A DNA stretch of 64,000 bases from the NCBI RefSeq assembly GCF_025685395.1, contig NZ_JAGSYA010000003.1, positions 992,001 to 1,056,000 of the forward strand, read 5' to 3'. Made by a program: the position numbers and the translations under genes. The notes below the pieces were generated by a model that saw only the letters and a list, made by a program, of their open reading frames with translations, did not search any database and had not been told where the DNA came from. How positions within the stretch are numbered: the first letter of the stretch is position 1; every line of letters starts with the position of its first letter. This DNA comes from Terriglobus tenax. GTDB lineage: Bacteria > Acidobacteriota > Terriglobia > Terriglobales > Acidobacteriaceae. Below are positions 46,598 through 64,000 of this stretch, in pieces.

Positions 46598-48274
46598 ATG
46601 AAGATCTTTCCCCTTCCCGCGGTTCTTCTTATTGCTCACCCTTGCATCCTTCTCGCACAGACAGCATCTCCTGCAAAATATCAGGCTGCTGGATCTCCAG
46701 AAGCACCTCTCATCGTTGATGTACATGCGTCGCCGTATCGTGCTTCGATCAATTACACGGTGAATATAAGCAAGCGACGCTTCGATATGCACAATGCAAC
46801 GATCGTGAATATGATCGACTTCGTGTATGGCCGTGAGGATGATGATGGCCGTGAGAATGAAGCCGTCTCGGGCGGTCCTACCTGGATCGACCTCGATCGC
46901 TTTGATGTGGTTGCGGTGATCCCCGCAGACAGGCCGGCTTTGCCAGGGGCAGGCCCGGATAACAATGTCCGCTACGGAGCAAATGCTTACGACAAAATGA
47001 GGCTTGTCATGAGGCGCGTGCTCACGGAGCGCTTTCGTCTGAAATACCACACGGCGGACCGCGTGCTGCCGGGCTACGTTGCAACCGTAGCGAAGGAGGG
47101 CTCGAAGCTGGTTGAGGCGAAGGACGCGGCTGCTCCGAGTGATTGCCGCCGCGCCCAGGAGAAGACTGATACGGAGCAAACCGTTATCACTTGTACCTCT
47201 GAGACGATGGAACATTTTCTTCAATCGTTTGGAGGCGTATTTCCTCATCCCATCATCAATCGCACAGGGCTTACGAAGCCCTATAACTTTACTTTGAAGC
47301 TTTCCTCGCAAGAGATGCAGACTCGGGCGGGATACATCCATGCCCTGACAGATGCATTCAGAAAGCAACTTGGCATCGTCATCGCACTTGGTGGAGCGCC
47401 GCAACCTGCAATCGTCATTGATAGGGTAGAACAGCCGACGGCGAACCCTGCGCAGATTGAGACGCAGATCGGCGCTCTTCCGGATCTTGAGTTTGAGGTT
47501 GCGAGTGTTCGGCCTGTCTCAGATCAGGAGCCGCAATCGCAGTCGCAGATCCGCCATGTCGGCTCACAGATCGACTTTATCAATATGACCATGCAGGAAC
47601 TGCTGACGCAGGCATGGTCGTTGCCCACGGGAGCGATGCTGGGCAACGTTCCGCCATGGCTTGGCCGGGCGCGATATACCATTCGCGCGAAGCTTCCGCA
47701 GGAACTGGATGCCCGTGCAGCATTTCAGGACCAGGACACACTGGCCAGCATGCTGCAGAAACTTCTGGTCGACCGCTTTCAGATCAAGTACCACTGGGGC
47801 GAGCAGGAGCAGGATGGCTGGGAACTGGCATCGGATAACCCGAAGATGAAGAAGGCCAACCCTGGCTCGCGAAGCTTTTGTAAATACGGGCCGCCGGAAG
47901 GCGAAAAAGATATCCGTACGGTCGACTCGGCGTTCAACGCGCAGTTTCATTGTCAGAATGTGACGATGGGGCAGTTTGCCGACCTATTGCAGCCCATGGC
48001 ACGGTCTGAGATCAAGAACCGCGTATCGGACGTGACTGGATTGACGGGATCCTACGATTTCTCCCTTTATTACACAACAGGGCGCAAGATGAGAGTAGAT
48101 GCTGCTGCTGCCCAGGCAGCGGCGAAGCAAAACGCCTCGTTGCCTGATCCAGTTACTGGCCTAAGCGTGGAGGATGCTTTTCGCCGGGAACTCGGGCTCA
48201 GGCTGAAGAAGCGCCGGGGAACCTACCCCGCTCTCATCCTGGACCACATTGAACAGGTCCCCACTGAGAATTAG
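46598..48274 (+). CDS. TIGR03435-family soil-associated secreted protein (tandem domain)
   Basis: The 558-residue protein has a signal peptide (KIFPLPAVLLIAHPCILLAQ) and two copies of the TIGR03435 module. In each a core phrase recurs: LVMRRVLTERFRLKYH / MLQKLLVDRFQIKYHWG, then RTGLTKPYNFTLKL / DVTGLTGSYDFSLYY, then FRKQLGIVIAL / FRRELGLRLKK. The family is expanded in Acidobacteria and has no known function. Normal members have one module of ~250 residues, so this one is a duplication. The sequence around LFR...YH repeats suggests an ancestral internal duplication. It is followed 90 nt later by the ABC exporter. Confidence 0.88.
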   Translation: MKIFPLPAVLLIAHPCILLAQTASPAKYQAAGSPEAPLIVDVHASPYRASINYTVNISKRRFDMHNATIVNMIDFVYGREDDDGRENEAVSGGPTWIDLDRFDVVAVIPADRPALPGAGPDNNVRYGANAYDKMRLVMRRVLTERFRLKYHTADRVLPGYVATVAKEGSKLVEAKDAAAPSDCRRAQEKTDTEQTVITCTSETMEHFLQSFGGVFPHPIINRTGLTKPYNFTLKLSSQEMQTRAGYIHALTDAFRKQLGIVIALGGAPQPAIVIDRVEQPTANPAQIETQIGALPDLEFEVASVRPVSDQEPQSQSQIRHVGSQIDFINMTMQELLTQAWSLPTGAMLGNVPPWLGRARYTIRAKLPQELDARAAFQDQDTLASMLQKLLVDRFQIKYHWGEQEQDGWELASDNPKMKKANPGSRSFCKYGPPEGEKDIRTVDSAFNAQFHCQNVTMGQFADLLQPMARSEIKNRVSDVTGLTGSYDFSLYYTTGRKMRVDAAAAQAAAKQNASLPDPVTGLSVEDAFRRELGLRLKKRRGTYPALILDHIEQVPTEN

Positions 48275-48364: not shown

Positions 48365-50173
48365 ATGCTTAAGAAACCTTCGAAGCTATCCGACCTTCTG
48401 GATTCCACTCGAAATATCCCCCTGTTGCTGCGCGAAATATGGCAGACGGCACCTGCGGTGTGTACTGCAATGGTGTTGCTTCGCACGGTTTCTGCCGTTC
48501 TTCCGATGATGGCTCTGGCGGTTGGGGGGCTATTGATCGATGCCATCAACATGGCGCAACGCACCCATGTTTTCCCCGTGAGGGTATGGTGGCTTCTGCT
48601 GGCGGAGGGGCTGCTGACGCTGGCGAGTAATGCAGCGTCGCGAATGGTGGCCCATTACGATCTTGTTCTGGGCGACAAGTTCAACCTGAGAATGAGCCTT
48701 AAGCTCATCACCCACTGCAACAATCTTGATTTGGAAACATTCGAGAACTCGGAGTTTCAGGACAGGCTGCAGCGTGCCAGGTCGCAGATTACCTCCCAGG
48801 TTTCTCTCATGAGAAACCTGCTGCAGGCGCTGCAGCAGTTTATCGGGGTTGGCGTCGTGCTTTTCGGTTCGCTGCTCGTCGCTCCGGGACTTATCGCCGT
48901 GCAGTTTCTGGGTGTTTTGCCTATTGTGGTGGCGGAAAGCTACTACACGCGTCTTCGGTACAAGCTGTACAGAAACAGGACGCCGCTAAAGCGCTATCTG
49001 GACTACATTATCGGCCTGGTACTCAGCGTAAATGCTGTAAAAGAGGCCAAGCTTTTTGCGATAGGCGATTACATCTATGGCGAATATAAAGGGGTAGCGG
49101 AGAAGCACAATACGGAAGACGCCGTGTTGTCAAAACGCGCCATGAATGCGGCACTTCTTTTAGTGGCGCTGGGAACGCTTGTCTACTACGGGACGTACAT
49201 CGTTCTTATCTTCAGCGCCATCGCAGGTGCGTTCAGCATCGGTCGCCTGGTGTTTTTCGCCGGGATTCTGATGCGCTTCCGAAACCAGCTGAGCGCCCTG
49301 TTTACGAATCTTTCGCAGGGTATGGACCAGCTGCTATATATCGGCGATGTGTTGGAGTTCTTCTCTTATCAACCCCGCCTTGAAGCGGCCGCATCTGGAC
49401 GCTCAGTCGCTGAGACGATCTCTACTGGAATAGAGTTCAGAAATGTTTCTTTCTCGTACCAGGGGGCTGCGAAGCCCGCACTCAAGAATGTGTCGTTCCA
49501 TATCGCTCCGGGAGAAGCGATTGCTCTGGTGGGAGAAAACGGGGCGGGCAAGTCGACGATCGTCAAGCTGATTACCCGGCTCTACGACCCGAGTGAGGGA
49601 CAGATTTTGCTGGATGGGATCGACCTGCGTGAATACTCTTCCAGCTCGCTGCGCAATGCTATGTCAGCCGTATTTCAGGACTATGTAAAGTACGACCTGA
49701 GCGCATCCCTGAATATCGCAATCGGAAACCTTGAGGCAAAAGAGGATGGCGACCGGATTATGAAGGCCGCGAAAGGAGCGCGTGTCGCGGCGCTTATCGA
49801 AGGCTTTCCGCGGCAGTACGAGCAGATTCTTGGGCGCCGGTTTGACGATGGAATCGACCTTTCGGGTGGACAGTGGCAAAGGCTGGCACTGGCCAGGGCG
49901 TATATGCGGGATGCCAAGGTCCTGATTCTTGATGAGCCTACCGCCACCATCGATGCCCGCGCAGAAGAAGCCGTGTATCAGGATGTAATGGGAGTGATTG
50001 CCGGCAAGATGACTGTTCTCGTATCTCATCGTCTGTCCACGGTACGTTTTGCGGACAAGATACTGGTTCTAAAAAACGGATCTATCTGCGAGCAGGGAAC
50101 TCATGCCGAACTGATGGAAGCCGGTGGCGAATATGCTGATCTGTTTACGTTGCAGGCAAGAGCGTACGCCTGA
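48365..50173 (+). CDS. ABC exporter, fused permease and ATPase
   Basis: The 602-residue half-transporter has an N-terminal type I ABC membrane domain (six helices; e.g. MALAVGGLLIDAINM and VGVVLFGSLLVAPGLIAV). The nucleotide-binding domain has Walker A GENGAGKST, Q-loop AVFQDYVKYDLSA, signature LSGGQWQR, Walker B VLILDEPTATID and switch His LVSHRLS. It likely exports a lipid, peptide or natural product as a homodimer. It stands at the left end of the biosynthetic region and is its most obvious exporter. There is no peptidase domain, so it is not a leader-processing exporter. Confidence 0.9.
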   Translation: MLKKPSKLSDLLDSTRNIPLLLREIWQTAPAVCTAMVLLRTVSAVLPMMALAVGGLLIDAINMAQRTHVFPVRVWWLLLAEGLLTLASNAASRMVAHYDLVLGDKFNLRMSLKLITHCNNLDLETFENSEFQDRLQRARSQITSQVSLMRNLLQALQQFIGVGVVLFGSLLVAPGLIAVQFLGVLPIVVAESYYTRLRYKLYRNRTPLKRYLDYIIGLVLSVNAVKEAKLFAIGDYIYGEYKGVAEKHNTEDAVLSKRAMNAALLLVALGTLVYYGTYIVLIFSAIAGAFSIGRLVFFAGILMRFRNQLSALFTNLSQGMDQLLYIGDVLEFFSYQPRLEAAASGRSVAETISTGIEFRNVSFSYQGAAKPALKNVSFHIAPGEAIALVGENGAGKSTIVKLITRLYDPSEGQILLDGIDLREYSSSSLRNAMSAVFQDYVKYDLSASLNIAIGNLEAKEDGDRIMKAAKGARVAALIEGFPRQYEQILGRRFDDGIDLSGGQWQRLALARAYMRDAKVLILDEPTATIDARAEEAVYQDVMGVIAGKMTVLVSHRLSTVRFADKILVLKNGSICEQGTHAELMEAGGEYADLFTLQARAYA

Positions 50174-50213: not shown

Positions 50214-50996
50214 TTAAGCTTCTTCGCGGCGAAGTGCGGTATTGAACTCTGAGACTGCCTGGAGGAATTCGATCTGACCGCCGGACTCAAGCGTTCTGGC
50301 GATAATTGCAGAGAGATCTTTGGGCAGGCATTTGCCTCCAAACCCGAGCTTGCCGGTGACCGTGCTATGGGAACGTCCAACGCGTGTATCAGCGGTCCAG
50401 ATCTCTCTCATCTGTGTAAAGTCGGCTCCAAAGTGCGAGGCGAGAAGATAGAACTGTGCAACAAAGGCGACCTTCGTCGCGAAAAAGCAGTTCTCCATAT
50501 ACTTCGATAGTTCCGCCGTAATGGCGTCGGTGACGAAATAGTGGGGCTCAGGGCCAAGGACATCGCGATAGGCCGAGATGAAGCGCTCGCACAGACAGCG
50601 CTCTCCTCCAACTGCTACCAGGTCAGGTACACGGGTTACCAGCGATTTGTGAAAAGGCGTTTCGCCAATATATTCCGGGCTGAAGACGATCTGCTTGCCG
50701 AACTCTTCGGTGAGTGCCTGCACCGTTCCTGGAGGGATGGTGGACTTGATACACATTGGAGGAAGAATCCACGCGACAACCTCGCGGACGGCCGAGATAT
50801 CGCAACTGCCATCTTCGGAGGCAGGCGTGGGGACAGAGATAAAAACGAGATCGCAATTGTTGATGTCACGTTGGCGGCTCTCGCTCCCCATCTCCGGATC
50901 AAACTTGTCATAGATGACGACTTCACGATGTCCATCAAGGAACAGTTGAGCCAGATGTTTGCCGACAACGCCATACCCCACCACACCTACTTTCAC
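50214..50996 (-). CDS. UDP-glucose/GDP-mannose dehydrogenase-like protein, short form
   Basis: The 260-residue product has the NAD-binding domain (MKVGVVGYGVVGKHLAQLF), the central helix and the catalytic Cys motif GFGGKCLPKD of nucleotide-sugar 6-dehydrogenases, with FSPEYIGETPFHKS typical of the family. It ends at RREEA without the C-terminal UDP-binding domain (normal length about 430). It may be a substrate-restricted variant acting on another sugar or activated acid, or a remnant that kept catalysis. It is 4 nt from, and overlaps, the adjacent glycosyltransferase-like gene on the same strand. Confidence 0.8.
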   Translation of the reverse strand: MKVGVVGYGVVGKHLAQLFLDGHREVVIYDKFDPEMGSESRQRDINNCDLVFISVPTPASEDGSCDISAVREVVAWILPPMCIKSTIPPGTVQALTEEFGKQIVFSPEYIGETPFHKSLVTRVPDLVAVGGERCLCERFISAYRDVLGPEPHYFVTDAITAELSKYMENCFFATKVAFVAQFYLLASHFGADFTQMREIWTADTRVGRSHSTVTGKLGFGGKCLPKDLSAIIARTLESGGQIEFLQAVSEFNTALRREEA

Positions 50997-54020: not shown

Positions 54021-54704
54021 ATGGTTGCGGACGAAATGGTGCCGAATGAAGATCGTCTTCAGAGTGTGAAGGAATACTACGCAGGGGTGGCCGACATCCT
54101 GTTGCCCATTCTTGCGCTGCCGCACGGGCCTGAGAAGTCTGCGACCTGTCGTGCCAATCAGATCGACCCCGGCATTATCAGGACAATGCTCGACTACTCC
54201 CGCTACCATGAGGCCAGGTATGTTGAGAAGGCCTTGTCCTCTATCGATGTCTCCATCCAGGGATTGAGGATGCTCGACTTCGGGTGTCTTGTCTCGGACT
54301 ATGGTCTTTACTTTGCAAGGCGGGGAGCCTCCGTTGCGATCTACGATAACGAGAGCGCAATCAACTTTGCGGAGTTCCGGTATACCCGTGAAGGTCTCCA
54401 GCCGCTAGCCTACCGCATGCCCACATCCTACGACGAGCTGTTTCGCGGCCGCGAGTTGGTGGTGTTCGGCGAAGTGCTGGAACACGTGAATGATCCAGTC
54501 GACATTGCGAAAGCCTGCATCGATAACGGGGTGCAATACATCTTCACCTCCTGTTATCCGTATGGAGATGATCGGTACTTTGCGCTCCCTGGCCACTCGA
54601 AGAAAGCGCAACAGCAGCAGGGAGAGTTCATTGAGTTGATGGAAACGTACTATCAGCCAACCATCACTCACGATAAAGCACGGTTCTGGCGCCGAATTCG
54701 TTAG
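54021..54704 (+). CDS. SAM-dependent methyltransferase-like protein
   Basis: The 227-residue protein has a shortened methyltransferase core: LRMLDFGCLVSDYGLYFARRGASVAIYDN as motif I/II, and VVFGEVLEHVNDPVDIAKAC as the motif III region. It appears related to class I methyltransferases acting on sugars or small molecules. GAGGAG lies 5 nt before the ATG. Its stop overlaps the stop of the convergent glycosyltransferase by 4 nt. Function in the pathway is inferred only. Confidence 0.75.
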   Translation: MVADEMVPNEDRLQSVKEYYAGVADILLPILALPHGPEKSATCRANQIDPGIIRTMLDYSRYHEARYVEKALSSIDVSIQGLRMLDFGCLVSDYGLYFARRGASVAIYDNESAINFAEFRYTREGLQPLAYRMPTSYDELFRGRELVVFGEVLEHVNDPVDIAKACIDNGVQYIFTSCYPYGDDRYFALPGHSKKAQQQQGEFIELMETYYQPTITHDKARFWRRIR

Positions 54705-56902: not shown

Positions 56903-57964
56903 GTGATACCAGAGTTGAGCCTGTTCTTTTTCAGCGCCGACGCTTCAGAGCAGCCGGATGAGAAATATCGCATGCTGCTGGAGACCTCGAAGTTTGCTGA
57001 TGAACACGGGTTTACAGCTATCTGGACACCCGAACGGCACTTTCAACGGTTTGGCGGGCTTTACGGAAATCCTTCGGTCACAGGCGCAGCCCTGGCGATG
57101 GTGACCAAGCGGATATCGATACGAGCCGGAAGTGTCGTGCTTCCTTTGCAGGACGTCCTCCGCGTTGCAGAGGAGTGGTCCATGGTGGATAACCTTTCTC
57201 AGGGGCGAGTTGCGATTGCCGCTGCATCCGGGTGGCATGTGAACGACTTTGTCCTGAATCCCGGATGCTACCAGGATCGCAACGAGGAGCTCTACACGAA
57301 GATCGCTCTCGTAAAAAGCCTTTGGCGAGGGGAGAAGATCTGCCGTCCAAATGGTGCTGGCGTGATGACGGAGGTGGGCATTCTGCCCAGGCCTATTCAG
57401 GCTGAACTTCCGGTCTGGGTGACGGGCCGCTCCGACGATACGTTTCTGCAGGCTGGAAGGATGGGCTTGAACATCCTTACCGGGAGCTATGCGGTCAATC
57501 ACAATCTTCCGGAGTTCATTCGCAAGGTAAAGCTGTACCGCGCCACGATGCAGGAGCACCACAACCGGCGAGGCCATGTTACGTTGATGGCCCATACGTT
57601 TGTGGGAGAAGACTGGGATGCTATCTCTGCGATTGCTGAGCCAGCTTTGCTGCGCTACCTCTCGATCAATCTGCAGTTACAGAAAGACAACTCGGCTGGT
57701 CTGCAGGACGAACGAGGATTTTCGCAGCTCGGAGATCGAGAAAGCCGTTTCATCATCAGGGCACAGGCCAGGAGCGACCTAGCAAGTCCGTTGAGTTTTA
57801 TCGGACCTCTCGAGCACTGCAGGACGCGCGCGGCAGAGCTGCACGAGTACGGGGTGGATGAAATCGCCTGCCTTATCGATTTCGGCGTTTGCCTGGACGA
57901 GGTAATAGCGAGTCTTCAGCGGCTCTCCCTTTTATTGAAGGATCGCACACCAGGCAGTTTGTAG
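56903..57964 (+). CDS. Luciferase-like monooxygenase, natural-product type
   Basis: The 353-residue flavin enzyme has the natural-product luciferase-like monooxygenase pattern (MupA/Atu3671-type): GFTAIWTPERHFQRFGGLYGNPSV, SIRAGSVVLPLQDVLRVAEEW and VAIAAASGWHVNDF. Such domains are usually embedded in NRPS/PKS assembly lines and hydroxylate a carrier-bound acyl or aminoacyl substrate; here it is a free-standing protein. It starts at a GTG behind GGGGGACGA. It leads a plus-strand series that includes an acyl carrier protein 2.2 kb downstream, a plausible partner. Confidence 0.9.
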   Translation: MIPELSLFFFSADASEQPDEKYRMLLETSKFADEHGFTAIWTPERHFQRFGGLYGNPSVTGAALAMVTKRISIRAGSVVLPLQDVLRVAEEWSMVDNLSQGRVAIAAASGWHVNDFVLNPGCYQDRNEELYTKIALVKSLWRGEKICRPNGAGVMTEVGILPRPIQAELPVWVTGRSDDTFLQAGRMGLNILTGSYAVNHNLPEFIRKVKLYRATMQEHHNRRGHVTLMAHTFVGEDWDAISAIAEPALLRYLSINLQLQKDNSAGLQDERGFSQLGDRESRFIIRAQARSDLASPLSFIGPLEHCRTRAAELHEYGVDEIACLIDFGVCLDEVIASLQRLSLLLKDRTPGSL

Positions 57965-58024
57965 AAGGTACGCGGTAGACTTGGTACGCATTTGTATCTG
58001 ACAGGACAGGCTAAGGAGAGCAAC

Positions 58025-58948
58025 GTGAAAATAGCCGTGATCTGCAGCCATTTCAACTCGGCGGGATTCCATGTTCCGCGCCGCAACCTGCTTCGTTTTC
58101 TTCGCCAGCTTGAGGCGAAGAAGATACCGGTGTTCGTCGCTGAACTTGCCTACGAGGACCAGGAGTTTTTCCTGCCGGCCGGCCCTGCCGTTTTCCAGTT
58201 TCGGACGGATAAGCGCAATGTGTTGTGGCACAAGGAAAACCTTCTGAACCTGGCGGCCGGGCTGGTTCCTCCTGAATACGACTGCCTGGCATGGATTGAC
58301 CCGGATGTGTTCTTTATGTCGGAAGATTGGGTCGAACAAGCACAAAGACAGTTGGAGTTCTATCCAGTTGTGCAGTTATTTTCAGAAGCCTGGTGGACGG
58401 ATGAGGATGGCCGCTGCATCCGCTGCTCCAGAAGCACAATGGCCGACGGAACGTTGAAGATGGGCATAAATCATCCTGGGTTTGCATGGGCGGCGCGCAG
58501 AAGCATGTGGCGTGAGGCAGGGGGCTTGTGTGAGTTGGCCATCCTTGGCAGCGGGGACGCCCTCTTCGCCGCGGCCTGCTTGGGGGAAGAGATTCCGAAG
58601 TGGGTGCATTATCCGCAATGGAAAACCTGGACGAAGCATCTTACCGAATGGGTACGTAGCAACGGCGGGGCAAGCGTGATTCCAGGGGCGGTCGTCCATG
58701 AATGGCATGGTGCAGAGAGAGACCGTGCGTATGTTCCCCGAAATTTACTGCTGAAGGATGTCGATATACCTAAGACCGTGCTGAGAAGAGAAGATGGTCT
58801 TCTGCAGTTTGCGCAGGGTGTTCCCAGCCGGCTCCGTGAAGCCTTCCTGGACTATTTCATCTGCCGGCGGGAAGACGGAAGAGTCTCGCCACCCGCGATA
58901 ACTTCGCAGAGTGAGAGTGGGTCGCCGATCCTTAAGGCATTGAGTTGA
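58025..58948 (+). CDS. GT-A-type glycosyltransferase-like protein
   Basis: The 307-residue protein has a nucleotide-sugar-type acidic motif WIDPDVFFMSEDW and a downstream GINHPGFAWAARRSMW acceptor-side motif. These are seen in GT-A-fold glycosyltransferases (family 8/32/other) of capsule loci. No exact family could be named. The GTG at 58025 follows AAGGAG by 7 nt and starts the core VKIAVICSHFNSAGF. Its role in the pathway is inferred from neighbours. Confidence 0.65.
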   Translation: MKIAVICSHFNSAGFHVPRRNLLRFLRQLEAKKIPVFVAELAYEDQEFFLPAGPAVFQFRTDKRNVLWHKENLLNLAAGLVPPEYDCLAWIDPDVFFMSEDWVEQAQRQLEFYPVVQLFSEAWWTDEDGRCIRCSRSTMADGTLKMGINHPGFAWAARRSMWREAGGLCELAILGSGDALFAAACLGEEIPKWVHYPQWKTWTKHLTEWVRSNGGASVIPGAVVHEWHGAERDRAYVPRNLLLKDVDIPKTVLRREDGLLQFAQGVPSRLREAFLDYFICRREDGRVSPPAITSQSESGSPILKALS

Positions 58949-59085
58949 AAAGAGTCCGGATGATTGCGCCAGGTCTATGTGCCGGTGATATGCTCGTGTA
59001 TCAATTTTTTTTGCGGTTCAGATGTTTTGATCCAAAAGTAGGAGATAGCCTGACAAGGTTTTCTCTCTCAGGTGGAGGAACTTGA

Positions 59086-59865
59086 TTGCCTGCTTCTGAC
59101 ATTTTGGTGATTGTGCCTTCGTGTGGGCAGTTTGATTTTGTTTATCGAACTGTGGCATCGCTGGAAGGGGCCAAGAAAAACGCACCTGTTGACTACGTTG
59201 TGATTGACGATGCGAGTGAAGAATGGGATGCGGTGGATTGGGATTGCTTTCCAGATCCTGATTGCCGCAAGCATCACTTCGAAACGCGTGAAGGCCTGAC
59301 TCGATCTTGGAATAAAGGACTTTCAATCGCGCGGGAAGAGGGCTATCAGTACGCGGTCTGCGCAAACAGCGATCTTGTGTTCTCTCCTGGATCTCTGACG
59401 CATTTGATATCTGCCTTAGATGCCGGTGCATCGCTGGTAGGACCGATGACAAATGCTCCCGGGCATTGTCCATGGCAGAATGTGCGGCCTTTCCTTGCTG
59501 GGGAAGAATGTCCGATTGATGATTCAGTGGAAAGCATCTCGGCGATTTCAAGCCTGTTAGCGCTGTGCAGGATCGGGCCTATTGAATGCTCTCTGAATGG
59601 GTTCTGCCTGGCTGCACAAACGCAGACATGGTGGGCCGGGGCTTTTGACCAGACCGCCGTCTTCAATCCGGCTTTCCCTTTGAAACACAACGAAGTTGAA
59701 CTGCAAAGACGCTGGTATGCCCTGGGACTGGAAGCGGTGATGGTTCCGCAAAGCTACGTGTTCCATTACAGAAGCGTATCGCGCCCGGAAGGTTTGAAAG
59801 GCCGTGTTTCCAAGGGAGCGTTTCGCCCGATTGCGGAGAAGAGCATCAAGGTATTGAAAGACTGA
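59086..59865 (+). CDS. Family 2 glycosyltransferase
   Basis: The 259-residue protein has the GT2 fold: ILVIVPSCGQFDFVYRTVASL, VVIDDASEEWD, TREGLTRSWNKGLSIAREEG and the metal-binding ANSDLVFSPGSL (DxD-like as NSD). The acceptor-side aspartate pair and C-terminal WYALGLEAVMVPQSYVFHYRS fit the family. The TTG at 59086 lies 6 nt after GGAGGAA. It probably transfers a sugar to a polymer or natural product. Sugar and acceptor are unknown. Confidence 0.85.
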   Translation: MPASDILVIVPSCGQFDFVYRTVASLEGAKKNAPVDYVVIDDASEEWDAVDWDCFPDPDCRKHHFETREGLTRSWNKGLSIAREEGYQYAVCANSDLVFSPGSLTHLISALDAGASLVGPMTNAPGHCPWQNVRPFLAGEECPIDDSVESISAISSLLALCRIGPIECSLNGFCLAAQTQTWWAGAFDQTAVFNPAFPLKHNEVELQRRWYALGLEAVMVPQSYVFHYRSVSRPEGLKGRVSKGAFRPIAEKSIKVLKD

Positions 59866-60144
59866 TGTGCCGGGACGAGGAGTGTGCTTCGCGGGGCTCA
59901 TCCCAGCCCATAACTGATTCGGAGCCGCGCGAAATGCCTGTGTAAGACAAGGTGTGACAAGACCGCAGGAGAGCAGATATTATCCTCCTGACTTTCTTCA
60001 TCGTTCTTTGTGTGCTGGGTTTTCATTCATATTTTCGAAACGTTTTGTTTGGATGTGGCGCACGAAGAAATAGCATGATCCTGATCAGAATCACCCGGAA
60101 CGTAGTCGATCTGCCATAAAGAGAATTGAGTTTCACCACTCCGA

Positions 60145-60402
60145 ATGAAAGGGCTTTCTGTGGAAGAGAAAATCTCTGCGTTGATTGCACAAGTGAAGGG
60201 AGATAGCACACTCCCAACAAGACTGAAGAGCTCCAGCAATCTACTGGAGGAGGTCGGTCTGGATTCGCTGCAGACGATCAACCTGATCCTGCTGGTCGAA
60301 GGTGAGTTTGGAGTCGAAGTCGACTTTGACACATTCGATATGGATCACTTGAGCACACTGGGTAGCTTTGCAAGCTATATCAAGGGCCTGGAGACGGTGT
60401 GA
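60145..60402 (+). CDS. Free-standing acyl carrier protein
   Basis: The 85-residue protein is an acyl/peptidyl carrier protein: VGLDSLQTINLILLVEGEFG carries the phosphopantetheine Ser (about 41) in the DSL motif, followed by the acidic helix III. It would be pantetheinylated and hold an acyl or aminoacyl group as a thioester. The start may also be the GTG five codons on. Its stop overlaps the ATP-grasp start by GTGA, so the two are translationally coupled and very likely partners. Its sequence (LLEEVGLDSL) is of the stand-alone type found in hybrid and non-canonical pathways. Confidence 0.9.
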   Translation: MKGLSVEEKISALIAQVKGDSTLPTRLKSSSNLLEEVGLDSLQTINLILLVEGEFGVEVDFDTFDMDHLSTLGSFASYIKGLETV

Positions 60403-61718
60403 GTTCTCGCGTCTTCTGCGGACCTTTTGAGGCAGAGACATTCTGGCGGCCATCCTGTCTTGCTGTGCTTCCGTCTTTGCCGGATCCCGCGGCATCGCAT
60501 GTCATTCAGGCGATGGATGAACTCCTTTTTGCTCTGTGCTCCCCCCAGGATCGTGTGCTGACCACGCGCCGCATGAATGATTCGCACGTGGAGTATCTCA
60601 ATGCAATCGGATTTCAGTTCGAGCGAAACCGCTTCGATCTCGTCCCTGCATTGCGCGCGCGCGGCCGTTCGAATCCGTATGAGTCCCTTGAGGAGCGTGA
60701 CATCGATGGGCAACTTACGGATTTCCTGTCGGTGGCCGATGAACTTGAGCCTTTTGCCGTAGTATCGGGGATTGCCGGTGTGGCGCAGCGCTATGGTCTG
60801 TGTTCCACGTTTCCTGCGGAGGATGCCGTACAGCGCATCAATACGAAGAGCTATTGCCTGGAAGTGAGAGAGGTCGTTGGTATCGGGAATGTCGGACTGC
60901 TTGTCGACAGTGTCGAGGCCCTGCTACGTGAGGGAACAGCACTGCTGGTCAGCGGGCCATTCCTTATCAAGGATGACTACGGCGTATCGGGCAAAGGAAA
61001 CCAGATCATCACCCAGCAAGGCTCGTTGGAACGTATTGCGCAGTATCTCTCCGGACAGGTCCAGCAGGGGAAGCACGTTCGCTTCGTTCTTGAACCATAC
61101 CTTGCAAAGAAACTGGATTTCTCCTGCCAGTTCCAGGTGGGCAAGGATGGCTCGTTTCACCTGATATCCGTTCAGCATCTCGTCAACGATGGGCTCGCCT
61201 TTGGGATGTCGACATCTCCTGGCGCCGATCTCTTGGCCAAGCTGGAAAGCGAAGAATACTTCCGTCAGATGGAGGAAATCGGGAAAAAACTCTATGCGGA
61301 CGGCTACTTCGGGCATGTTTGCGTCGACTCAATGTGGCTGCAGGATGGAAGCTTGATACCGCTCGTTGAGATCAACGCCCGGCGATCCATGAGTCTGATC
61401 AAACATGCCATGGATCAGCATCTTGCGCGGGAAGGGAAGACAGGCTCGTTAACTTCGATTGCGGCGGCCCATGATGGGAGCATCGGGTTCACGGACTTGC
61501 TTCATGCGTTGCGGCAGAGTGGATTGCTTTTTGAAGCGGGACAAGGGGCTGGAATCATCCCTCTTACCAGCGGAACGCTTTTCCCGGAATCTTCCCAGGG
61601 AAAAGTAAGAGGCCGTCTTTACGTGGAGGTCGTTTACGAAGCGGTGGAGCAGCGTTCCGCTTTATTGGCAGACCTCACCACCGCGATGCAGCAATCCGGC
61701 TTCCAGGTAAGAGTTTAA
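60399..61718 (+). CDS. ATP-grasp ligase coupled to the acyl carrier protein
   Basis: The 439-residue protein has an ATP-grasp domain from about residue 190: LLVSGPFLIKDDYGVSGKGNQII with the glycine-rich ATP loop, then LDFSCQFQVGKDGSF and the metal/ATP motif LIPLVEINARRSMSL near 330. ATP-grasp enzymes form an acyl phosphate and then an amide or thioester bond. Translation starts at a GTG overlapping the carrier-protein stop, the strongest functional link in the cluster: it may load the carrier or ligate an amino group to a carrier-bound acid. N- and C-terminal domains are unassigned. Confidence 0.85.
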   Translation: MSSRVFCGPFEAETFWRPSCLAVLPSLPDPAASHVIQAMDELLFALCSPQDRVLTTRRMNDSHVEYLNAIGFQFERNRFDLVPALRARGRSNPYESLEERDIDGQLTDFLSVADELEPFAVVSGIAGVAQRYGLCSTFPAEDAVQRINTKSYCLEVREVVGIGNVGLLVDSVEALLREGTALLVSGPFLIKDDYGVSGKGNQIITQQGSLERIAQYLSGQVQQGKHVRFVLEPYLAKKLDFSCQFQVGKDGSFHLISVQHLVNDGLAFGMSTSPGADLLAKLESEEYFRQMEEIGKKLYADGYFGHVCVDSMWLQDGSLIPLVEINARRSMSLIKHAMDQHLAREGKTGSLTSIAAAHDGSIGFTDLLHALRQSGLLFEAGQGAGIIPLTSGTLFPESSQGKVRGRLYVEVVYEAVEQRSALLADLTTAMQQSGFQVRV

Positions 61719-61746
61719 ACAGAGATAGACAAGCACTTCCCGCTCG

Positions 61747-62616
61747 ATGAGAGGAACATTGCAAACTATGTCTCATGTCAGTAACCAGAGTGAACAGTCT
61801 CTTGAGATTCTCTCCACGGCCAGGATGCCTGATGTGACGCCAAATCGTTTCAGTGTTTTCCTGCTTTACGCATCCTTTGCTGTTCTATTCGGCTTGCTAA
61901 GCCCCATTTATTACCTGAACCGGTGGGACTTCAAGCGTAAAACCAGGAAGAATCCTTTCTACACAAGTGTGATCGTCAGGCTGCTCGAGCGGTATCCCAT
62001 CCTGTATGAAGTGGCGATGTTTGCGCAGAATTTCCCCATTCCACATCACGTATATAAGGCATTGCCGAATTTTTCCGGCGATGTGCTGCAGGTGGGTTGC
62101 GGAACAGGTTTGTTGAACAAGCAATTGCGTAGCCGCACCGATATCAGGTTCACGAACTTCGATCCAAATGGTCATTCTTTGAAAACCGGCATGAGGTTGA
62201 AGAGGTTTTCGACATGCGTGCAAGGCTATATCGACAAAGGAACCCCGTTTCCGGACGAGTCATTTGACGTGGTTCTTTTTGCGAGGAGCTTTCATCACGT
62301 ACGCCAGCATCGCAAGGCATTTCAGGAATGCTCCCGGGTCTTGAGACCCGGAGGGGTGATTCTTGTTGTAGACCCGGTGATCCTGGAGAGTCGAGCCGAG
62401 GAGTTCTCAAACGGATACATGGCGAATTCCTCGATTGATGGAGTGATCTGGCGATTTACGCAGAGATCGTTTGAGAAGCATGTATCCCAGGTTCTTCCGG
62501 ATTCGCTGAAACTGGTATCTGTGAATTGTGTCCGGCAGTTGCACGTGACGAACTACAATCTCTTCGTGCCGCAGACCGATGTCATCGCGGTTATAGAGAA
62601 ACAAAGGGTTCCATGA
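61747..62616 (+). CDS. Membrane-associated class I methyltransferase
   Basis: The 289-residue protein has an N-terminal hydrophobic segment (FSVFLLYASFAVLFGLLSPIYY). A methyltransferase core follows: VLQVGCGTGLLNKQL as motif I, DIRFTNFDPNG as motif II, FDVVLFARSFHHVRQHRKAFQECSRVLRPGGVIL. This SAM-binding sequence is intact. The hydrophobic N terminus suggests a membrane-bound enzyme or a lipid-linked substrate. The start is uncertain: ATG at 61747 lacks a clear site and a later ATG (61768) is also possible. It lies 28 nt after the ATP-grasp gene. Confidence 0.8.
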   Translation: MRGTLQTMSHVSNQSEQSLEILSTARMPDVTPNRFSVFLLYASFAVLFGLLSPIYYLNRWDFKRKTRKNPFYTSVIVRLLERYPILYEVAMFAQNFPIPHHVYKALPNFSGDVLQVGCGTGLLNKQLRSRTDIRFTNFDPNGHSLKTGMRLKRFSTCVQGYIDKGTPFPDESFDVVLFARSFHHVRQHRKAFQECSRVLRPGGVILVVDPVILESRAEEFSNGYMANSSIDGVIWRFTQRSFEKHVSQVLPDSLKLVSVNCVRQLHVTNYNLFVPQTDVIAVIEKQRVP

Positions 62617-62716
62617 TCTTCTTCGATCCAGGCCTTGCTGGACCAAAGGTTATTGAGCAGGCAGCTTTAGAAATCATCTCCGTTCTATTGGAAGGGGGCT
62701 AGAGATCGAGCATTCT

Positions 62717-63853
62717 TTGCACACCCGGACCTCTTCAGGCCCTGTTACCGTGCTCTGTTCCGGGTTCGGACTGGGGTTCTATATTCCTGGGATTCTGATC
62801 CGCAACCATCTCCGCAGCCTGGATGTTCCGGCTCGGTCGGAGGTCTTCGAGAGCCTGATCGAAGAGTCGAAGCTGAGCGCGGTTGATAGAACCCGGGATG
62901 CGTATGCGAAAGACTTCAAAGTCGCGCTTGCTTCGCAACGCATCCCCAACGATATCCGCAATAACATTGATTCGGAACGTTTGCGTTCGACACTTGCGCG
63001 ATGGCATGCGGAAGATCGACGGAGCTTTATATGCCTGTCGGGACACTGGGTACATGTTCTGGACATTTATCGCCAGCAACGCCCGGATGTCGAGCTGTTA
63101 GTCGATCTGCTGCATCTGGATGCGGATGACTCCCCCTCGTGGAAGCAGGTGCGAAAGCTTGTGCCGAACTATGAAGCTCCTTACCGGGTGGTGCAGCTAT
63201 ACGACGTGGGCGCAATGCAGATCAATTACAGGGTCAATACCAGCACGGTTCCTGCACTGCCGTTTGACAAGCGAAATCGCAGGCTGGTTGTTCACGGTGG
63301 CGGATGGGGCATTGGCACCTACAGGGATCGCGTTGCAGAATTGGAGTCCGCGGGTTTTGCGCTGGACATGGTGAGCTACGGACCGCAAGTGCCAGATCCG
63401 GATGCCACGAGCCGCCGCCGCTACTTCTCCGAAGATCCGTTTTGGAGACCCTGGCATCTGGAAACTGGTGGTGACTGCGGATTCCCTCCGCCCGGAATAC
63501 TTAGCACCGGCCTGGACGAGACACGTATTTCGGTTCAAAGTGGTTCGCATGGCCTGTACGAACTGATTCGAAGTGCATCTGCCATTGTCAGTAAGCCGGG
63601 AGCTGGAACGTTGATTGACTCTCTGGGTTCATGTACCCCGCTGGTGATGCTGGAGCCTTTTGGTGCGCACGAAGAAGCCAATGCAAACGTGTGGTCTGCA
63701 CAGGGATTTGGTATTTCTTACCGCGATTGGGCTGCTGCCGGCTATGCGAACTCCATTCTGGAGACGATGCATTCCCGGTTGATGGAGCGTAAAGAGCGTA
63801 TCGCGGAGTACGTATCAACATTGATCGAAGATATGCAGGAGGTCGCGCAATGA
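62717..63853 (+). CDS. GT28-like (MurG/UGT-type) glycosyltransferase
   Basis: The 378-residue protein has a GT-B fold with N-terminal glycine-rich loop VLCSGFGLGFYIPGILIR. The C-terminal donor motif is VSKPGAGTLIDSLGSCTPLVMLEPFGAHEEANANVW, as in UDP-glycosyltransferases. A second phrase LVVHGGGWGIGTYRDRV also fits GT28. It starts at a TTG with a weak site; the stop overlaps the start of the radical SAM gene by ATGA, so the two are coupled. Donor and acceptor are unknown. Confidence 0.75.
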   Translation: MHTRTSSGPVTVLCSGFGLGFYIPGILIRNHLRSLDVPARSEVFESLIEESKLSAVDRTRDAYAKDFKVALASQRIPNDIRNNIDSERLRSTLARWHAEDRRSFICLSGHWVHVLDIYRQQRPDVELLVDLLHLDADDSPSWKQVRKLVPNYEAPYRVVQLYDVGAMQINYRVNTSTVPALPFDKRNRRLVVHGGGWGIGTYRDRVAELESAGFALDMVSYGPQVPDPDATSRRRYFSEDPFWRPWHLETGGDCGFPPPGILSTGLDETRISVQSGSHGLYELIRSASAIVSKPGAGTLIDSLGSCTPLVMLEPFGAHEEANANVWSAQGFGISYRDWAAAGYANSILETMHSRLMERKERIAEYVSTLIEDMQEVAQ

Positions 63854-64000
63854 GCGATGGAGTCGTTTCGTCGAGTGCCCTGAACTCTCCACTTCCTCGC
63901 TGGATCTTTCTTCAGCTGCTGGAGCACTGCAACCTGCGGTGCCACATGTGCTACGAATGGGGCGATTCGGGAGCTTACAGGGAAAAGACGTCGCTGAAGA
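63850..64000 (+). CDS. Radical SAM enzyme (5' part, cut by the window edge)
   Basis: The 50 visible residues show the radical SAM motif CxxxCxxC as CNLRCHMC (Cys 27, 31, 34) in LQLLEHCNLRCHMCYEW, where the Fe-S cluster binds S-adenosylmethionine. The style of the motif and the Trp following resemble SPASM/twitch enzymes of RiPP and sugar-modification pathways, but the rest is outside the window, so subfamily cannot be assigned. The ATG overlaps the previous stop (ATGA), indicating coupled translation with the GT28-like gene. Confidence 0.8.
   Translation, partial: MSDGVVSSSALNSPLPRWIFLQLLEHCNLRCHMCYEWGDSGAYREKTSLK

Follow-up and report, generated by a model that had tools for sequence, protein, structure and literature searches.

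Background

In butirosin synthesis BtrJ loads the carrier BtrI, and one ligase likewise loads a small carrier in D-alanylation (DltA/DltC) and in standalone adenylation/carrier pairs. The butirosin 4-amino-2-hydroxybutyrate (AHBA) pathway, comprising BtrI, BtrJ, BtrK, BtrO, BtrH and BtrG (butirosin cluster AB097196, as named in PMC11405602), is the nearest described counterpart of the operon considered here, which lies at the end of a 64,000-nucleotide stretch of the Terriglobus tenax genome (contig NZ_JAGSYA010000003.1, positions 992,001 to 1,056,000; hereafter the window). Like this locus, the butirosin pathway has a free carrier, an ATP-grasp ligase, a luciferase-like monooxygenase (LLM) and a radical S-adenosylmethionine (SAM) enzyme with four auxiliary cysteines.

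BtrK is described as a decarboxylase acting on the glutamyl-BtrI carrier (PMC7857480), BtrO as the monooxygenase of the pathway (PMC2922099) and BtrJ as an ATP-grasp enzyme (PMC4431377); the original prediction, made from the sequence of the window, that no described pathway has this combination of genes overlooks these proteins and their carrier BtrI. Butirosin has BtrK and BtrH, whereas a search of the window together with L002 and L003, the stretches that take the view 39 kb past its end, turned up no BtrK-like gene, and BtrH_N (PF14399) has no match in the whole genome. Relative to butirosin, the cassette to which the operon belongs has in addition a methyltransferase, a GT28-like enzyme and a pair of larger radical SAM proteins. 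The likeness between BtrO and the window LLM (TIGR04020) is one of description.

Other systems resemble the locus in part. Compared with DltA/DltC, the presumed loader of the cassette is an ATP-grasp enzyme, and radical SAM 2 and GT28-like proteins are conserved beside it. ATP-grasp peptide ligases of the PGM1/BesA type share remote sequence similarity with the window ATP-grasp (8ynd, 8yi6); what sets the cassette ATP-grasp apart is the carrier protein that accompanies it in 73 of 80 relatives. The window LLM scores above the TIGR04020 cut-off and is close to PuwE, but the window genome, unlike the setting of MupA/PuwE-type LLMs, is without an assembly-line carrier or condensation domain. The scleric acid cluster combines an acyl carrier protein (ACP) and an ATP-grasp enzyme with a nonribosomal peptide synthetase (NRPS) module, and its ATP-grasp enzyme is proposed to join free acids (PMC6335953).

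A four-gene cassette in several phyla

The operon spans 60145 to L002:3267 on the forward strand (Table 1). Its core genes form a cassette that recurs in other bacteria: an alignment of the GT28-like protein, scanned against 84,980 species genomes, picked up 81 relatives; 80 of them were retained, and their loci were examined with 10-kb flanks where the contig allowed, at thresholds of 25 bits for the ACP and 100 bits for the other proteins. Found via the GT28-like protein alone, 73 of these 80 loci hold the ACP, the ATP-grasp ligase, the GT28-like protein and the second radical SAM protein (radical SAM 2) together, and all four core genes also lie within 10 kb of each other at the window and L002. 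Six loci have an ACP, a GT28-like protein and radical SAM 2 without an ATP-grasp above 100 bits, and in one, L098, whose contig measures 13 kb, the GT28-like gene stands alone. The hosts are Bacillota, Actinomycetota and Bacteroidota, with many Paenibacillus and actinomycetes carrying the cassette.

The ACP immediately precedes the ATP-grasp gene in 63 of the 73 loci having both; in the window, as had been predicted, the two are coupled by an overlapping GTGA (60145-60402 / 60399-61718). The comparison of carrier/ATP-grasp neighbourhoods that had been proposed as a check therefore places the pair within a four-gene cassette. Other members of the operon are more variable in occurrence, radical SAM 1 being present in 21 of the 80 loci and the methyltransferase (>100 bits) in 5, and a Gfo/Idh gene accompanies the cassette in at least 45 of 83 loci.

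ATP-grasp relatives were also found in four plasmid records, all from Streptomyces, three of which were searched over all open reading frames (ORFs). Two of these plasmids (L034 and L035) hold orthologues of radical SAM 2, the ACP, the ATP-grasp ligase and the GT28-like protein together, a third has a remoter ATP-grasp with an ACP, and the fourth record is from S. microflavus. On L034 an IS630 transposase (L034:479-1612) lies about 12 kb from the cassette, a hint of mobility.

The carrier/ATP-grasp logic appears butirosin-like and less without precedent than first supposed, and no paper describing the widely distributed cassette was found in the open-access literature, subscription papers being mostly outside this search. 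What was an orphan combination of genes becomes a defined gene family, present in dozens of species, with the GT28-like protein and radical SAM 2 as its marker. Substrate and product should be within reach, given that many of the hosts are named strains.

Probable origin by transfer

Maximum-likelihood analysis of 80 radical SAM 2 sequences puts that of the operon in a starred set of eleven whose other ten members are all from Paenibacillus (support 99/91); its nearest relative is that of P. prosopidis (63% identical). Among 396 genomes sampled from the phylum, a GT28-like protein at E<=1e-15 was found in one, the window's own. Since the operon's copy branches with Paenibacillus and is the sole one among these genomes, the operon was likely acquired by horizontal transfer. 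The GC content dips slightly on approaching the operon (about 0.53 as against about 0.56), which is not decisive.

Relatives of the ATP-grasp within the phylum were rejected as a source of context. Sixteen remote relatives were found and, the two weakest (G394 and G645) being left out, 14 neighbourhoods were examined as a control; the other eight query genes were absent from all 14. In one genome of the same family (G029, L033:1534-10345) an ATP-grasp lies with genes read by eye as cysteine-synthase-, ornithine-cyclodeaminase-, lysine-monooxygenase-, cupin- and methionyl-tRNA-synthetase-like, a set resembling a system predicted in PMC2922099.

A carrier and an ATP-grasp ligase without an assembly line

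The D/N-S-L/I/M motif of the ACP is kept in all 79 ACP relatives scored, 70 by pattern and nine read by eye as ALDSL. All its NCBIfam matches are under cut-off, the top one being the cispentacin carrier AmcB (32.9 bits), and matches to DltC are also sub-cut-off. Across the genome analysed (4.36 Mb, completeness 98.4%), PF00550 matches in two places, the operon ACP and AcpP at C4:1860134, 13 bases downstream of which lies a ketosynthase ORF read by eye as FabF. The operon ACP as the primary fatty-acid ACP is accordingly rejected, and so is a hidden NRPS/polyketide synthase (PKS) cluster, the condensation domain (PF00668) having no match in the whole genome. As predicted, reading the ORFs listed for 44-64 kb and for L002 by eye shows no ketosynthase, condensation or adenylation gene (the genome-wide searches did not include PF00501). 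The region past 64000 holds the rest of radical SAM 1 and radical SAM 2, with no assembly-line gene by eye among the L002 ORFs. Both findings that had been named as fatal to a non-modular pathway, NRPS/PKS modules nearby and a primary ACP, were thus looked for and failed to appear, and the pair is conserved across phyla.

The ATP-grasp has no Pfam match at 0.001, its match to PGM1_C having E=0.015 and 15.3 bits against a cut-off of 22.5. As a single sequence it matches the solved ATP-grasp peptide ligase 8ynd (2.7e-6), and a 38-row family profile (A4) matches 8ynd at 3.7e-13 and the L-propargylglycine-L-glutamate ligase 8yi6 at 9.1e-7; the solved ATP-grasps nearest to the profile are peptide or amino-acid ligases. 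Residues K150, K191, D240, D310, E324 and N326 are invariant over the 38 rows.

Offloading enzymes and apparent exchange of the presumed loader

Across 82 loci (the 80 together with L034 and L035), searched with ten queries at E up to 1e-6, 67 hold one of three unrelated acyl-offloading enzymes and 15 hold none; two kinds never occur together. BtrH-like proteins are found in 35 loci, standalone condensation domains in 28 and thioesterases in 4. None of the 28 condensation domains or 4 thioesterases is more than 1.5 kb from a core gene; of the 35 BtrH-like genes, 27 are equally close and all 35 lie within 6 kb. Representative condensation domains (PF00668, 75.8 and 119.5 bits) and thioesterases (PF00975, 83 to 103 bits) score above cut-off; the thioesterase of L112 forms a fusion with a carrier. 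Among BtrH-like proteins scanned singly, that of P. oralis is the only one above cut-off (32.1 bits). In the genome search the BtrH match beside the P. oralis cassette is again above cut-off (34 bits), and the matches next to the cassettes of P. prosopidis and PCH8 fall short of it (28.4, 21.9 and 22.5 bits), the above-cut-off matches of these two genomes lying elsewhere.

The ligase itself appears exchangeable. Two loci lacking the ATP-grasp have an AMP-binding enzyme: in L075 it is flanked by radical SAM 2 and the ACP, and in L109 it comes directly after radical SAM 2. The latter cassette, in a Cytophagales metagenome-assembled genome (L109:1407-10885), is also accompanied by a phosphopantetheinyl transferase and a different kind of LLM; a ketosynthase and a second ACP were recognised there by eye.

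In some relatives an ATP-grasp stands near butirosin-like genes. The order in P. prosopidis is methyltransferase, ACP, ATP-grasp, GT28-like, radical SAM 1, radical SAM 2, Gfo/Idh, NTP-transferase, epimerase and UDP-glucose-dehydrogenase-like gene, followed by a BtrH-like gene, a BtrK-like pyridoxal-phosphate (PLP) decarboxylase, a second ATP-grasp, a second ACP and a second BtrH-like gene (both BtrH labels being sub-cut-off). The second ATP-grasp, beside the BtrK-like gene, shares 26% identity with that of the window over 408 columns (1e-30) and has relatives at E<=1e-20 in 92 of 295 Paenibacillaceae genomes. On a plasmid of S. decoyicus (L036:8951-12973), an ATP-grasp, a BtrK-like decarboxylase (TIGR03099, 377 bits, cut-off 478) and an ACP stand beside a ketoacyl-ACP synthase III (KASIII)-like gene and an NRPS. 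The second module of P. prosopidis, beside its cassette, occupies L126:1117-6152 and continues into L038.

Radical SAM, GT28-like and methyltransferase proteins

Both radical SAM proteins exceed the cut-off of PF13186 and are of the SPASM/twitch type. The window had been said to carry one radical SAM gene on the same strand as the carrier; of that gene, radical SAM 1, it contains no more than the opening 151 bases, and a second one follows outside. Radical SAM 1 shares 65% identity over 362 columns with its P. prosopidis counterpart, and its top solved match is cytosylglucuronate decarboxylase (5.9e-10). Radical SAM 2 as a single sequence has BtrN, of the butirosin cluster, as its top solved match, in its C-terminal part (2.4e-6). 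Seven of its cysteines are invariant over 20 rows, C72, C76 and C79 of the CxxxCxxC cluster and C341, C359, C399 and C402, the latter four forming an auxiliary pattern that we take to be twitch-like; the twitch family NF033640 is among its top NCBIfam matches, with a score below cut-off.

The GT28-like protein taken singly matches PF04101 at 14.2 bits, under the cut-off of 22, while its family profile (A5) matches the diacylglycerol beta-glucosyltransferase 9wde at 3.9e-10 and monogalactosyldiacylglycerol (MGDG) synthase 4wyi at 0.0016. The methyltransferase shares 58% identity over 254 columns with the P. prosopidis cassette enzyme. It had been predicted to be membrane-associated; the methyltransferase assignment holds (PF08241), and the hydrophobic N-terminus was read by eye only. 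Much the same applies to the three glycosyltransferases predicted for the locus, of which the GT2 enzyme (PF00535) and, by family profile, the GT28-like protein were confirmed, and the protein at 57992 is a glycosyltransferase by eye only.

Proposed pathway and alternatives

The features read directly from the sequences are gene content and order, their conservation, the mutually exclusive offloaders of the relatives and the branching with Paenibacillus. We consider it probable, with some reservation, that the operon is a horizontally acquired copy of a widespread cassette in which the ATP-grasp enzyme loads an acid onto the ACP and the resulting thioester is modified and offloaded as in butirosin. 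The substrate, most probably an amino acid, would be activated by the ligase at its carboxyl group to give an acyl phosphate and, by analogy with BtrJ and BtrI, placed on the phosphopantetheine arm of the ACP. Once tethered, the acyl group would be altered by the two radical SAM enzymes of SPASM/twitch type, with the LLM possibly hydroxylating it; methylation and glycosylation, the latter by the GT28-like enzyme, would come next, and the finished group would be passed to an acceptor. A carrier-bound acyl group is suggested because of the linkage of ACP and ATP-grasp, the exclusive offloaders, the exchange of the loader for an AMP-binding enzyme and the ATP-grasp homologue beside BtrK-like genes; loading of the carrier is also argued for by the peptide and amino-acid ligases among the solved ATP-grasp kin and by the lack of another specialised carrier in the genome. 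The original prediction of a non-modular pathway in which a ligase loads a carrier is to this extent upheld, there being no assembly line and the pair being conserved with offloaders across phyla; the lack of precedent, the place of the LLM in the pathway and export by the ABC transporter did not fare as well. More tentatively, the cassette may define a multi-phylum class free of assembly lines, in which an ATP-grasp-loaded amino acid on a small carrier is rebuilt by radical SAM enzymes, glycosylated on the carrier by a GT28 enzyme and released by a swappable offloading module. We know of no earlier case of radical SAM chemistry and glycosylation on a standalone aminoacyl-carrier; if tethered chemistry of this kind does occur, both would join the chemistry known on standalone carriers.

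Several observations weigh against this reading. None of the three kinds of offloader was found in the window, L002 or L003, nor was a Gfo/Idh gene, and the absence of BtrH_N matches mentioned above extends to the whole genome. The offloader queries were taken from the searched loci themselves, and six BtrH-like proteins score 26.5, 22, 19.8, 19.4, 17.6 and 17.4 bits against a Pfam cut-off of 29.7. Of the 6 loci without an ATP-grasp above 100 bits, only 2 show a clean swap for an AMP-binding enzyme: L104, one of the six, has a weak 50-bit ATP-grasp match, and the swap was dropped for L059, L060 and L114, whose AMP-binding gene is shared with loci possessing an ATP-grasp. The window ATP-grasp is likened to BtrJ only by description and by its homologue beside BtrK/BtrH-like genes, and a 20-row profile of radical SAM 2 ranks the peptide maturase SkfB first (1.2e-14) and BtrN sixth (6.6e-10). 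The operon's sequence has a long end branch (0.69) in the radical SAM 2 tree, where the placement of long rows is unsure. Finally, the acceptor of the sugar may not be the carrier-bound group, because the GT28-like enzyme resembles lipid glucosyltransferases.

This last point leads to another reading, in which the cassette, by a Dlt-like logic, attaches an aminoacyl or acyl group to a glycolipid or polysaccharide, itself the product of the GT28-like enzyme and the surrounding glycosyltransferases, and does not make a secreted small molecule. The profile matches to diacylglycerol glucosyltransferase and MGDG synthase speak for it, as do the surroundings, rich in glycosyltransferases and with a nucleotide-sugar dehydrogenase, the sub-cut-off DltC matches of the ACP and the apparently hydrophobic N-terminus of the methyltransferase. 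We nevertheless hold it to be unlikely, given the patchy distribution of the cassette (absent from the 395 further genomes of the phylum that were sampled), its copies on Streptomyces plasmids and the BtrK-like, BtrH-like and condensation-domain partners in relatives, which fit specialised metabolites better. The nearest solved relatives of the ATP-grasp and its sub-cut-off PGM1_C match would also suit a free peptide ligase of the PGM1/BesA type acting on released small molecules, with the ACP serving another step; the co-occurrence of ACP and ATP-grasp in 73 of 80 loci, their adjacency in 63 of 73 and their overlap in the window make this quite improbable.

The extent of the pathway upstream is a separate matter, as the LLM and the two genes after it could belong to a glycosylation locus unrelated to the cassette, a reading compatible with a carrier-loaded pathway for the rest. 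A 279-base gap separates these three genes from the ACP, and none of them was found in any of the 80 cassette loci at the 100-bit threshold, so the LLM cannot be assigned to the same pathway in the way originally stated; that it is present and free-standing was borne out (TIGR04020, 389 bits), its nearest solved sequence being PuwE 6ket (8.5e-82). On the other side, TIGR04020 is named seco_metab_LLM, among 40 plasmid relatives listed 3 are annotated as polyketide or adenylation-domain proteins, no other specialised carrier was found in the genome, and the cassette of L109 is accompanied by a different kind of LLM. As to the original remark that such enzymes are normally embedded in assembly lines, 26 of the same 40 relatives are annotated as plain LLMs (by annotation, not length). 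A separate locus seems to us quite conceivable, somewhat short of even. The LLM possibly acts on the carrier of the operon; the sole grounds for placing it in the pathway are its nearness and the failure to find another specialised carrier in this genome.

Layout and surroundings

The order on the forward strand is LLM, 57992 protein, GT2, gap, ACP, ATP-grasp, methyltransferase, GT28-like protein, radical SAM 1 and radical SAM 2, the last lying wholly, and radical SAM 1 for the most part, past the end of the window. The GT28-like and radical SAM 1 genes share an ATGA overlap. The set of genes first described for the locus is thus partly confirmed, the ACP/ATP-grasp pair, the LLM, the GT2 enzyme and the methyltransferase standing, the extent of the radical SAM genes being corrected and one glycosyltransferase being read by eye only. 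A promoter and terminator scan gave about as many sites as shuffled sequences.

Table 1. Positions of the genes discussed, numbered along the window or, where prefixed, along L002
Feature	Position	Strand	Evidence
TIGR03435 protein	46598-48274		294 bits; suggestive of Acidobacteriota
ATP-binding cassette (ABC) transporter	48365-50173		Confirmed; ends 6.7 kb ahead of LLM
Short nucleotide-sugar dehydrogenase	50214-50996	-	TIGR03026 136 bits, under cut-off 189.8
Free-standing LLM	56903-57964	+	TIGR04020 (MupA/Atu3671 family) 389 bits, cut-off 244.45
57992 protein, glycosyltransferase-like by eye	57992-58948	+	No family match
Family 2 glycosyltransferase (GT2)	59086-59865	+	PF00535 1.1e-12; last gene before 279-base gap
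Free-standing ACP, 85 aa, motif GLDSL	60145-60402	+	PF00550 37.3 bits, cut-off 20.8
ATP-grasp ligase, 439 aa	60399-61718	+	Solved-structure matches; GTGA overlap with ACP
Class I methyltransferase	61747-62616	+	PF08241 2.5e-20; hydrophobic N-terminus by eye
GT28-like glycosyltransferase, cassette core gene	62717-63853	+	Family profile match to solved GT28 enzymes
Radical SAM 1, 387 aa	63850-64000, on as L002:850-2013	+	PF04055, PF13186
Radical SAM 2	L002:2017-3267, outside window	+	PF04055, PF13186

The ABC transporter to which export had been attributed exists, but nothing ties it to the operon. The relatives have pairs of ABC-2 permeases or, in one Streptomyces locus, major facilitator superfamily (MFS) genes, although the Clostridia locus L091 does carry two ABC proteins of 599 and 618 aa immediately upstream of the ACP. 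The tie of the nucleotide-sugar dehydrogenase to the operon is uncertain; it matches the P. prosopidis cassette enzyme at 43.9 bits, and relatives are present in 5 cassette loci.

A methyltransferase-like protein with sub-threshold Pfam matches only (54021-54704) is flanked by two glycosyltransferase genes. Downstream of the operon, L002 carries a phosphoglucomutase gene on the opposite strand and, by eye, a collagen-like repeat ORF of 1126 aa (L002:4984-8364) and a repetitive ORF of 2593 aa (L002:9793-17574).

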